Assembly (NCBI RefSeq): GCF_013371495.1
Contig: NZ_JABWTA010000001.1
Span: 496,001 to 560,000 of the forward strand
DNA length: 64,000 nt
Reading direction: 5' to 3'
Source of the DNA: Altererythrobacter lutimaris
GTDB lineage: Bacteria > Pseudomonadota > Alphaproteobacteria > Sphingomonadales > Sphingomonadaceae
This document shows positions 10,090 through 13,486 of the stretch, in pieces. The position numbers were made by a program, and so were the translations under genes. Under the pieces are notes generated by a model. It made no database searches. It worked only from the letters and a program-made list of their open reading frames with translations, and was not told the DNA's origin. Positions within the stretch are counted from its first letter, which is position 1, and the number at the start of each line of letters is the position of its first letter.

Positions 10090-11910
10090 ATGCCTGAAAT
10101 TCGCCGCCTTCCTGCCGCTTTGGTGAACCGCATTGCCGCCGGTGAAGTGGTCGAGCGACCGGCCGCCGCGCTCAAGGAATTGGTCGAAAATGCGATCGAT
10201 GCAGGCGCTAGTCGTATTGATGTGAAACTGGTCGATGGCGGCCTCACCAAAATCGAAGTGGCCGATGATGGCTGCGGAATGTCGCAAGGTGACATCGCGA
10301 TTGCACTGGAGCGGCATGCGACCTCCAAACTGCCATTGGAGCTGGTGGGCGAGGAAGGCGCTATAGAGCGTGTTCGTACGCTCGGCTTTCGCGGTGAAGC
10401 ACTTCCTTCGATTGCAAGTGTCGCGCAGCTGACCATTGAAAGCCGGGTTCGTGAGGCTGAAAGTGGCTGGAAGGCCGTGGTCGATCATGGGGAGCTGGTT
10501 GAGGAAGGCCCTGCCGCGCTTCCACCCGGAACGCGCATGACAGTCGAGAAGCTGTTCGCTCAAGTGCCTGCGCGTCGTAAGTTTCTGCGCACGCCAAGAA
10601 GCGAATATGCTGCCTGTTTGGATATCGTCCGGCGGCTTGCGATGGCGCGGCCTGACATCGCGTTTTCGATGCTGCATGGAGAACGCAAAGTCATCGCGAC
10701 ACAAGGCGATGAAGCGCTGGCTGATCGTGTGGCCGGGATTGTTGCGCGAGAGCTCAAGGACAATGGGGTCGCTATCGAGCTGGAGCGACCGTCGCCTTCG
10801 GGTGTGATGCGGCTGACCGGGATTGCCGGCCTACCGACCTACAATCGCGGTGTGGCCGATCATCAGTATCTCTTCGTAAATGGTCGTCCGGTGAAGGACC
10901 GCTTGCTGGTCGGCGCCGTGCGCGGCGCTTACTCGGATATGCTGGCGAGGGATCGCCATGCGGTGCTCGCGCTGTTCTTGGAACTGCCAAGCGAAGATGT
11001 GGATGTAAACGTCCATCCGGCCAAGACCGAGGTGCGGTTTCGCGATGCGAATGGTGTGCGCGGCTTTATCGTTTCGGGGCTACGACAAGCTTTGAGCACG
11101 GGTGACCGGCGCAGCGCGCAAGGTCCGGATCGCGGCGCGATGGAACGGTGGAAGCAAGAGCCTGCGCCTGCTTTGGCAAGCATTTTCTCGCGGGACTGGT
11201 CAGCACCGCAATCGCGCGTTTCAGAAAGCTCGCAAGTCTGGCGCGCGCCATCATCCGATGGCGAAGTGATCGCTGCACCGCATGGACGGGCAGAAGAGGC
11301 CGCGCCTTTGCCTGAAGATGCTGCTGAATTTCCGCTTGGCATCGCGCGCGGGCAAGTCGCGAACACCTATATCGTTGCGGAGAGCGCTGACGGGCTGGTG
11401 CTGGTCGATCAACACGCCGCGCATGAGCGTTTGGTGCTCGAGCGGCTCCGCGCGGCCGGTGCAGGGGAGGCCGCCGCACGCAGTCAAGCTCTGCTCGTGC
11501 CCGATGTGGTCGAAATGGATGAAATTGATTGCGACCTGCTTGAAGAGGCCGCTGATGGCTTTGCCAAGTTCGGGCTCGTGATCGAACGGTTCGGACCCTC
11601 GGCCATGCTCGTTCGCGCCATGCCGCACACTTTGCCCAAGGGCGATCCGCAAGCGCTGCTGGCCGACCTTGCTGACGATATCGCCAAACATGGGCAAGCG
11701 CTGCTTTTGGAAGAAAAGATCGAGCATGTGCTCGCCACGATGGCGTGCCATGGTTCAGTCAGGGCAGGGCGAGTGCTGAGCGTTGCCGAGATGAACGCGC
11801 TGCTACGCGAAATGGAAGCGACCCCGCGCTCAGGCCAATGCAATCACGGGCGTCCAACCTGGGTGAAACTCAGCATGGAAGACGTCGAAAAGCTGTTTGG
11901 TCGGCATTAG
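10090..11910 (+). CDS. mutL: DNA mismatch repair protein MutL (with endonuclease motif)
   Basis: 606 aa from ATG 10090. The N-terminal GHKL ATPase shows ENAIDAG, DDGCGM and GFRGEAL. The C-terminal dimerisation/endonuclease domain carries DQHA at 440-443 with Glu446 and Glu451, matching the DQHA(X)2E(X)4E metal site of nicking MutL proteins, plus CHGSVRAG and GQCNHGRPT. It joins MutS to downstream repair and nicks the new strand. The last 63 bases (11848-11910) have a diverged twin at 12339-12401, beyond the pilZ gene, so the 3' end of this gene may have been replaced by recombination (see findings). Confidence 0.97.
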   Translation: MPEIRRLPAALVNRIAAGEVVERPAAALKELVENAIDAGASRIDVKLVDGGLTKIEVADDGCGMSQGDIAIALERHATSKLPLELVGEEGAIERVRTLGFRGEALPSIASVAQLTIESRVREAESGWKAVVDHGELVEEGPAALPPGTRMTVEKLFAQVPARRKFLRTPRSEYAACLDIVRRLAMARPDIAFSMLHGERKVIATQGDEALADRVAGIVARELKDNGVAIELERPSPSGVMRLTGIAGLPTYNRGVADHQYLFVNGRPVKDRLLVGAVRGAYSDMLARDRHAVLALFLELPSEDVDVNVHPAKTEVRFRDANGVRGFIVSGLRQALSTGDRRSAQGPDRGAMERWKQEPAPALASIFSRDWSAPQSRVSESSQVWRAPSSDGEVIAAPHGRAEEAAPLPEDAAEFPLGIARGQVANTYIVAESADGLVLVDQHAAHERLVLERLRAAGAGEAAARSQALLVPDVVEMDEIDCDLLEEAADGFAKFGLVIERFGPSAMLVRAMPHTLPKGDPQALLADLADDIAKHGQALLLEEKIEHVLATMACHGSVRAGRVLSVAEMNALLREMEATPRSGQCNHGRPTWVKLSMEDVEKLFGRH

Positions 11911-11992
11911 CCGCGCACAGTACGCGCTCCGCAATACTGCTTATGCATTGAATAGGCTCGCGATGACTATATTCTGCGAAATTGAGTCTGTT

Positions 11993-12313
11993 ATGGCGAC
12001 CGCTCCAGACAATCGACCAATCGGATCTTACAGCCGACAAATCCCACGTGATCGCCGCTTCAAGATCAATAGATGGGTAAAAATCAGGCAGCCCAACGGC
12101 GATACTCTGAATGCTAAGATCTCGGACATTTCGAGGACGGGTTGCCGGATCGAATGTATGGTGAAACCCGACACCGACAAACCAGTCACAATCATGATAG
12201 ATCAAGCCAAGCGGCTGAATGCGAGGATCGTCTGGTCAAGCGTTGGCGCTTATGGCTGCCAGTTCGACGTCCGGCTGAACGATCGCGAGCTGACTGAGAT
12301 CGTCTGGATTTAG
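11993..12313 (+). CDS. PilZ-domain protein, candidate c-di-GMP receptor
   Basis: 106 aa from ATG 11993; an in-frame ATG at 11963 would add ten residues and neither has a good ribosome site. The protein is a single PilZ domain: RRFKIN with clustered arginines (RDRR) at the N-terminal side, then DISRTG, which fits the [D/N]xSxxG motif, and a beta-barrel ending GCQFDVRL. PilZ domains bind cyclic di-GMP and control motility, exopolysaccharide or other outputs; no partner gene is adjacent. It lies between mutL and a relic of the mutL 3' end, which suggests it was brought in by recombination. Confidence 0.85.
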   Translation: MATAPDNRPIGSYSRQIPRDRRFKINRWVKIRQPNGDTLNAKISDISRTGCRIECMVKPDTDKPVTIMIDQAKRLNARIVWSSVGAYGCQFDVRLNDRELTEIVWI

Positions 12314-12338
12314 CTCCACGCCATCCGCAGAGCAAATT

Positions 12339-12401
12339 GGCCGCCCGACTTGGGTTAAGCTAAGCAAGGAAGACGTCGAGAAACTGTTTGGACGGCATTG
12401 A
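12339..12401 (+). pseudogene. Relic of a second mutL 3' end (last 20 codons plus stop)
   Basis: Read in frame this stretch encodes GRPTWVKLSKEDVEKLFGRH and a TGA stop, identical to the MutL C-terminus except one residue (M to K). At DNA level 50 of 63 bases match mutL 11848-11910. Of the eleven differences in sense codons, ten are silent third-position changes, so the two copies diverged while both were selected as MutL. It has no start codon of its own. It ends five bases before the stop of the convergent gene at 12406. Confidence 0.85.
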
Positions 12402-12405
12402 GCTG

Positions 12406-13005
12406 CTACTGATTGCTATTTCTAGCGAGTCGATACTTTAGCCAAAGTGATCGTAGCCCCTGAGCAAGGCAAAGTGCGCTTCCAACGCCCCAAATATAAT
12501 CAATGCCCTGCCAAGGGCTTGCCTTGAGCAGGAGCACGCCCAGGACGATACCAGCTATTAGTGTTATCAATCCCAGCGGCACCCAACTGGTTTGCTGAAG
12601 ATAATTGCGCTGTGCGTCTTCGCTAGAAAGCGCGGGTGAAACAGATGGCTTTCTTCGGAGCGCTTTTTCCGGCGCGCCGTAGATAATCATCGTCCCAGGT
12701 ACCAAAGCTACAAGTGGACTGCAGTAAATGAATATCGCAATCGGATCGTCCGGATCAAGCCCAGCCGCATAAGTCGCAGTGACCATAATCGTGACTGCAG
12801 CAACAACACCCCATATCAGTCGGCGCGAAGAACGCCGAAAATCCTCTAGGCATGAGTCCCTCTCATTGGGTGTGCAGTGGTATGCTGCGCCGCGTTGGTT
12901 TCGTCGAAAGAGATATCCATCATCGACCGGCGTAAATTGATCCAAGAACAGACTGTCCATCAAATCAGGTTCTTTGCCTCTGAACAGTCCTTTCAGCCAT
13001 GACAT
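12406..13005 (-). CDS. Hypothetical multi-pass membrane protein, 199 aa
   Basis: Start taken at ATG 13005 (MSWLKGLFRG), which avoids overlap with the preceding gene; an upstream in-frame start at 13029 would overlap it. The first 75 residues are soluble and charged. Two hydrophobic pairs follow (about 75-115 and 140-190), giving roughly four transmembrane helices, and the C-terminus is basic. No family is recognised. It follows the MaoC-like gene by four bases, so it may be cotranscribed with it and ychF. Base use does not stand out from its neighbours. Confidence 0.65.
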   Translation of the reverse strand: MSWLKGLFRGKEPDLMDSLFLDQFTPVDDGYLFRRNQRGAAYHCTPNERDSCLEDFRRSSRRLIWGVVAAVTIMVTATYAAGLDPDDPIAIFIYCSPLVALVPGTMIIYGAPEKALRRKPSVSPALSSEDAQRNYLQQTSWVPLGLITLIAGIVLGVLLLKASPWQGIDYIWGVGSALCLAQGLRSLWLKYRLARNSNQ

Positions 13006-13009
13006 CGCA

Positions 13010-13486
13010 TTAGCTCTCAATCGGCGCATCCGGATCGCGGACTTGCATCAGCCCGATATTGGTCATCTCCAGCACGACTTCATCGTTCTGATTGAACACC
13101 CAGCTGCGTGACTTGGTGAGGCCCATTTCCGGACGAGACTTGCTGCGGCGTTTCTCGATCAACTCGCTTTCGACGCGCAATGTATCGCCCGGATAGACCG
13201 GCTTCTTCCATTTGAGATCTTCAAGACCGGGTGAGCCGAGTCCTGCGCTATTCTGCTCCGTGAAATTGTCGACCAGCATGCGCATGGTCATCGCGCATGT
13301 ATGCCAGCCGCTTGCGGATAGCCTGCCGAAATGAGTCTGTGCCGCGGCCTCATCATCGAGGTGAAACGGCTGAGGGTCGTATTTGCTGGCGAAGTCGATC
13401 ACCTCTTCGCGGGTGACTTCATAGCGGCCATAGCTTTGCCGTCTGCCGACTTCCAAATCCTCGAAATAGATCCTGTCATCGTTCAT
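13010..13486 (-). CDS. MaoC-like (R)-specific enoyl-CoA hydratase/dehydratase family protein
   Basis: 158 aa, a single hot-dog fold. The family signature is visible: YEVTREEVIDFASKYDPQPFHLDDE, with the Asp and His expected of the hydratase catalytic pair, then FGRLSASGWHTCAMTMRM and VYPGDTLRVESEL. Such proteins hydrate trans-2-enoyl-CoA in fatty acid or polyhydroxyalkanoate metabolism; substrate cannot be told from sequence alone. It starts 11 bases after ychF on the same strand. Confidence 0.85.
   Translation of the reverse strand: MNDDRIYFEDLEVGRRQSYGRYEVTREEVIDFASKYDPQPFHLDDEAAAQTHFGRLSASGWHTCAMTMRMLVDNFTEQNSAGLGSPGLEDLKWKKPVYPGDTLRVESELIEKRRSKSRPEMGLTKSRSWVFNQNDEVVLEMTNIGLMQVRDPDAPIES

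Follow-up and report, generated by a model that had tools for sequence, protein, structure and literature searches.

The e14 element of Escherichia coli integrates inside the coding sequence of icd, supplies the gene with a working 3' end and displaces the native end, and the section of the source that deals with this site gives a duplication of 165 bp with 12 nucleotide exchanges and two conservative replacements (PMC11148124). The mutS elements of Vibrio splendidus 12B01 and other bacteria also dock in a mismatch-repair gene, supply a replacement end and leave the host end orphaned, but in the outline given in PMC5296598 they occupy the 5' end of mutS, the element in 12B01 is 27 kb long and its excision has been demonstrated, whereas here the 3' end of mutL is affected and the inserts are tiny. 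The mutL gene is also the target of SpyCI in Streptococcus pyogenes, but SpyCI, as summarized in PMC4701971, is a satellite prophage that sits at the 5' end of mutL and disrupts its expression. In the displacement of T6SS effectors in Vibrio, an imported module shifts the old 3' region downstream as an orphan. According to the relevant part of PMC5361080 this arises by homology-facilitated illegitimate recombination, a process that has been documented experimentally (PMC3240628 and PMC5361080, in the portions concerned), but the modules there are of the toxin-immunity kind and that part of the text describes no fixed junction.

The window, by which we mean the whole 64,000-nucleotide stretch of Altererythrobacter lutimaris DNA that was analysed (genome G000), has the feature seen in e14/icd, namely, a gene end duplicated on either side of an insert, and the upstream mutL copies here and in related genomes are presumably functional because their reading frames are intact. 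However, e14 is a prophage and encodes an integrase of its own, while the mutL inserts are of 0.3-2.2 kb and no recombinase was seen in them. Since no recombinase was found, we do not file the mutL inserts as members of the e14/icd type but only as working like one. We propose that foreign DNA of small size docks recurrently at the 3' end of mutL in this family, with the window as one instance, and we put the probability of this at about 0.7. A search of the open-licence literature gave no description of DNA inserted at the mutL 3' end in this group. When bacteria gain genes on a small scale, how this happened is often no longer visible, whereas here the recipient keeps a scar, which is its old 3' end.

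In the window the last 63 bases of mutL recur behind a pilZ gene (Table 1). Realignment confirmed what had been reported from the sequence: the alignment is free of gaps, 13 of the 63 bases differ, and the encoded tails agree in 19 of 20 residues. Eleven of the differences are in sense codons, 10 of them silent third-position changes and one an ATG to AAG change (M to K), and the remaining two are in the stop codon, which is TAG in the working tail and TGA in the relic. Just beyond the repeat the likeness is at chance level (2/10 bases upstream and 4/10 downstream). The best ungapped score of the window mutL tail against its own 3.5 kb downstream was 33.5; over 366 gene 3' ends (464 kb) the median of the same score was 10.5, and a score of at least 20 was reached only by the window mutL. 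A longer relic was also considered and dropped because the gapped extension to about -89 was not significant, being equalled by 59 of 1000 shuffles and by 143 of 2000 random 27-mers. Random substitutions in this tail would be silent in 22-23% of cases, and the probability that at least 10 of 11 are silent is about 3e-6, which rejects decay under random mutation. Judging from this pattern, the two tails are separately evolved mutL alleles, both selectively constrained, and the original prediction that two such alleles are needed is thus borne out.

Table 1. Features of the mutL locus in the window (positions are those of the window)
Feature	Position	Strand	Evidence
mutL, full-length working copy	10090..11910	+	ORF; MutL_C and DNA_mis_repair domains; 94% protein identity to G102
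Working (resident) mutL tail, stop TAG	11848..11910	+	38/42 last bases as in G102
ACCTGGGTGAAACT, putative recombination core in the working copy (T-W-V-K-L codons)	11857..11870	+	Same position as the switch in G372, G008, G513 and G476
Inserted segment, 428 bp, G+C 0.521	11911..12338	.	Absent from G102
pilZ gene, alternative ATG 11993	11963..12313	+	PF07238, E 3e-12
25-bp spacer, pilZ stop to relic	12314..12338	.	Gapped likeness to mutL not significant
Second mutL tail (relic), stop TGA	12339..12401	+	38/42 last bases as in G102
ACTTGGGTTAAGCT, core position in the relic	12348..12361	+	Matches the core position of the sister cases
Convergent 207-aa gene	12406..13029	-	No Pfam family; no relative in other mutL loci

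The G+C content of the insert is lower than that of the window (0.580), and only 2% of the window's 428-bp stretches are as low. The PilZ domain scored 47.1 bits against a cut-off of 22.5, and by reading, RQIPR and DISRTG in the translation fit RxxxR and D/NxSxxG, the c-di-GMP binding motifs of PilZ proteins. Among the matches listed from 397 genomes of the family, the best relatives of pilZ were 38-41% identical and from other genera, and no donor above 41% identity was present; no confirmed relative was found in genome_contigs and none in plasmids. Nor was mutL found within about 1.5 kb of the pilZ relatives in the nine nearest non-self matches that were examined. The convergent gene, whose stop codon starts four bases past the relic, also has a low G+C content (0.513) and is possibly another import.

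G102 is the closest species in the sample. It has no pilZ between mutL and maoC, so that a related form free of pilZ, which the original prediction had called for, does exist; the G102 contig stops about 565 bp behind mutL. Both window tails are equally close to G102 (Table 1). Since the tails tie and the mutL loci of relatives lack a counterpart of the convergent gene, neither tail can be assigned as native. No crossover step was seen near the 3' end when the identity of mutL to G102 was followed, G102 being only about 80% identical there, which makes this a weak test.

Second mutL tails were verified in 14 genomes of five genera, the window included, and the inserts between the tails are varied. 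A mutL tail match was obtained in 108 of 114 genomes of the window's genus, and 107 loci were compared because the match in G129 was too weak for mutL. A second tail with a DNA score of at least 20 was present in four of these 107 loci (window, G013, G112 and G077), and a fifth case in the genus, G008, was found by protein comparison. Of the 397 genomes of the family sample, 378 gave a tail match and 10 gave two, and from these G372, G150, G513, G476 and G382 were confirmed besides the window. The genus of G372 gave a match in 57 of 60 genomes and two tails in four (G372, G541, G542 and G559). Nothing new came from the genera of G513 and G382 (2/11 and 1/10, all already counted). G537 was added from the local comparison; its protein match is weak (E 0.03) and it was kept on its DNA score of 21.5 and its flank. 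The pairs G372/G559, which have a cargo gene in common, and G541/G542, which have common ends, may represent one event each. The second tail of G403 was rejected as an overlap of contig ends, and those of G380 and G485 were set aside, being 43-48% identical and on other contigs. Two full-length mutL tail matches were also seen on different contigs (C68 and C117) of the incomplete genome G402, as contamination or a second mutL would give. Insertion-free sites are available for two cases: G080 matches G077 over 1626 bp at 88.5% from the first base behind the relic, and G487 matches G382 in 28 of 30 flank bases. Because empty and filled sites exist in named species, docking is directly testable.

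The same DNA test was applied to other genes. In the window plus 20 stretches taken from 18 genomes of the genus, no second tail was found for any of 365 other 3' ends and no second copy for any of 354 gene heads. In 20 stretches of three other genera, one of 310 3' ends had a second tail and none of 291 heads did, which makes 1/675 for other 3' ends overall. The sole control case (G415, L294:17490-18000) is a true tail relic about 0.35 kb behind the stop of an unrelated gene that by eye looks like an HNH-type endonuclease, and it indicates that some scars need no special site. The difference between mutL loci (9/164) and other ends (1/675) has a P of 3e-6, and without the window and G372 (7/162) it has a P of 6e-5, but the comparison is approximate because the 164 loci are made up of 107 genus loci scored on DNA and 57 loci from the protein search. 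At ychF ends a second copy at E <0.05 was found in none of 98 loci.

The relic starts were placed by profile, counting back from the end of the tail. They are at -55 in G372, G513 and G559, at -56 in G008, G541 and G542, at -57 in G150 and at -50 in G382, so that eight of 14 cases lie at -50 to -57; the others are at -45 (G476), -35 (G537), -31 (G077), -64 (the window), -87 (G013) and -97 (G112). With the pairs merged, six of 12 events lie within 50-57 (P 0.007 in a uniform model over 20-120), and the clustering taken alone is modest evidence. A single universal attachment site for all 14 was ruled out because the relic starts span -31 to -97.

The tails themselves were more informative when they were compared with insertion-free relatives over -97 to -57 and then over -42 to 0. 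The working copy of G372 matches G463 in 38/40 and then 29/42 bases and the relic in 9/40 and then 40/42. The corresponding values are 39/40 and 27/42 with 8/40 and 39/42 for G008 against G012, 33/40 and 29/42 with 5/40 and 40/42 for G513 against G396, and 34/40 and 31/42 with 10/40 and 37/42 for G476 against G495. At -57 to -42 the four working copies match their relatives in 14-15 of 15 bases. A second relative of G372, G520, gave 35/40, 11/15 and 31/42 for the working copy and 42/42 for the relic. G541 and G559 have the same switch with less contrast (working tails 35 and 36 of 42, relics 40 and 39), and the foreign tails of G372 and G008, which belong to different genera, encode the same variant KLALEDVEKLFGRH. 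On these comparisons, the working mutL of G372, G008, G513 and G476 is native to -42 and foreign thereafter, while the relic is foreign to -57 and native thereafter. The switch inside the 15-bp core ACnTGGGTnAAr fits, and in these four cases points to, site-specific (or single reciprocal) recombination. The original prediction that the relic is the native tail therefore holds in these four, while in the window both tails tie against G102. Of the 14 cases, 12 could be scored for which tail is closer to the nearest relative, G150 having no relative and the G542 relic being without a stop and misaligned. The relic was closer in seven (by only one or two bases in G382 and G559), the window was tied, and the working tail was closer in G013, G112, G077 and G537. 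For G077, the empty-site sister G080 matches the working tail in 41/42 and the relic in 33/42 bases; in G013 the relic is nearer to G032 (40/42) and the working tail to G010 (41/42), both of which are near relatives by ychF.

Eight cargo proteins were examined. The Pfam families are GGDEF with 7TMR-DISM in G077, DUF2306 in G008, Abi_alpha in one of the two proteins of G372, DUF2971 in G382, and Glyoxalase_3 and PNPOx-like in G476; no Pfam family matched the other protein of G372 or that of G150. No recombinase was among the Pfam matches of these eight proteins, and a visual check of 16 motif matches in 192 loci revealed none near mutL. Outside the relic, the right ends of the inserts are alike at E <0.01 in only three of 14 cases, G008, G541 and G542: with the relic excluded, G008 and G541 match across genera over 56 bp at 84%, and further likeness within the three extends over 52 bp at 75% and 91 bp at 87%. 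The left ends are alike over short distances among G008, G476, G150, G541 and G542 and also between G372 and G559. G541 and G542 have both ends in common, and their inserts are 1036 and 1887 bp with no match reported in the middle. Searches of plasmids and phages with the G541 insert gave no match, nor did a search of viral contigs with the foreign-tail pattern.

The inserts resemble integron cassettes in being small, mostly of one or two genes, and in their varied cargo, and GTTAAGC in the relics of G000, G372 and G513 resembles the integron core, whose consensus is GTTRRRY. They differ from integron cassettes in being docked in mutL and in having no attC-like hairpin, and integron cassettes were rejected on the latter ground despite the core-like sequence in three relics: in 13 of 14 cases the right end did not fold better than its shuffled versions (z -2.31 to 1.22; RNA energies, both strands), and only G112, which holds a terminator-like hairpin, was below z -2. 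Several genera have an imperfect palindrome of about 38 bp, with the core GTCnGCnnACGACCCnATTGC, some 50 bases past the mutL stop (L197, L231, L235, L236, L237 and L066). It is commoner in mutL loci than in control sequence, being absent from 464 kb of the window's genus (g1) and occurring once in 400 kb of g99, g68 and g28. However, it is dispersed in 37 of 60 genomes of g99 (Qipengyuania-type), with 0-5 copies each and some pairs 0.9-2.8 kb apart, and as it is therefore not specific to mutL it was rejected as an element end.

The event that we envisage is that a segment with a donor mutL tail and pilZ would have recombined within the last 100 or so bases of the host mutL. The upstream copy would still be a full mutL because the incoming segment brought a working tail, and the other tail would be left behind pilZ as a relic. 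A recombinase encoded elsewhere may cut at the core ACnTGGGTnAAr, perhaps by way of a circular intermediate, and such a circle would join the insert ends at ACATGGGTTAAG. The window may have taken the same route as the four clear cases, and the core in its working copy would then be the one used in its own recombination. A more far-reaching proposal is that mobile cassettes without a recombinase circulate across related genera, dock at the mutL core with their own tail and one or two cargo genes (Abi_alpha, DUF2971, DUF2306, glyoxalase, PNPOx-like and perhaps PilZ) and are moved by a recombinase encoded elsewhere; we regard this as doubtful on balance.

For the window itself, we see little difference in likelihood between docking at the core and homology-facilitated illegitimate recombination. 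In the latter, to which we give close to an even chance, a linear donor crosses over anywhere in mutL and is joined at random downstream. It fits the window and the off-cluster relics of G013, G112 and G077, and the G415 relic indicates that the process is not limited to mutL. The G112 relic, which has decayed, lies directly behind a csp hairpin, as if a donor like G062, which has the same csp gene without a relic, had been joined there. Illegitimate recombination does not explain why four cases have both junctions within one 15-bp stretch, why relic starts cluster at -50 to -57, or why mutL is affected far more often than other genes. The illegitimate joining downstream in the original prediction is not borne out by the four sister cases, which point to a site used repeatedly and not to a single random accident, but the prediction still suits the three g1 cases, and perhaps the window, with their other boundaries. 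Site-specific integration in the window, with pilZ as cargo of a cassette docking at the mutL core, is quite possible though somewhat short of an even chance. The gene and architecture are the same, the cargo is a single gene, the relic includes the core, and such integration is clear for G372, G008, G513 and G476. On the other side, the likeness in the window relic reaches 7-14 bases farther upstream than the boundary of the main cluster, and a single 15-bp inverted match (E 0.02) is all that its insert ends have in common with those found elsewhere.

Recurrent docking at mutL also has to be weighed against a rescue of mutators, in which a strain without mutL function regained it through a foreign mutL end. 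Loss and reacquisition have been considered for mismatch-repair genes, mutL is affected more often than other genes, and the species divergence here is large, at which mismatch repair normally blocks recombination. However, the foreign part of mutL in the four clear cases amounts to only some 42 bases at its end, which is too little to mend the body of the gene, and the relics, apart from the decayed ones, resemble intact tails and not mutant alleles, so we consider a rescue improbable. A tandem duplication of the mutL end in place, followed by decay, would produce the repeat itself, but 10 of the 11 sense differences are silent and neither the upstream part of mutL nor the downstream flank is duplicated; this is very improbable. 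Still less credible is an assembly artefact. One such artefact did occur in the family sample, in G403, but the window lies inside a 2.94-Mb contig and its tails differ at 13 bases.

Should docking at mutL prove site-specific, mobile DNA would be exploiting mutL as well as mutS among the mismatch-repair genes, and excision or faulty docking at mutL could alter the mutation rate. The persistence of the relics may have a separate cause. By eye, a lipoprotein-like reading frame starts in or directly behind the relic end in G372, G541, G542, G559, G537, G513 and G476, and the relic may be retained for the ribosome-binding site of this gene. Such retention could account for the survival and shortness of the relic. 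It would leave the reciprocal switch unexplained, and nearly the same boundary is present in G008 and G382, in which no lipoprotein-like gene is evident. In G013 (L056:564-700) a short reading frame of the insert appears to be cut by the relic junction, as random joining would leave it. In the window's genus the interval between mutL and the convergent ychF ranges from 7 to 3351 bp in the 98 loci that reach ychF and differs in gene content, and is thus a variable spot between conserved genes.
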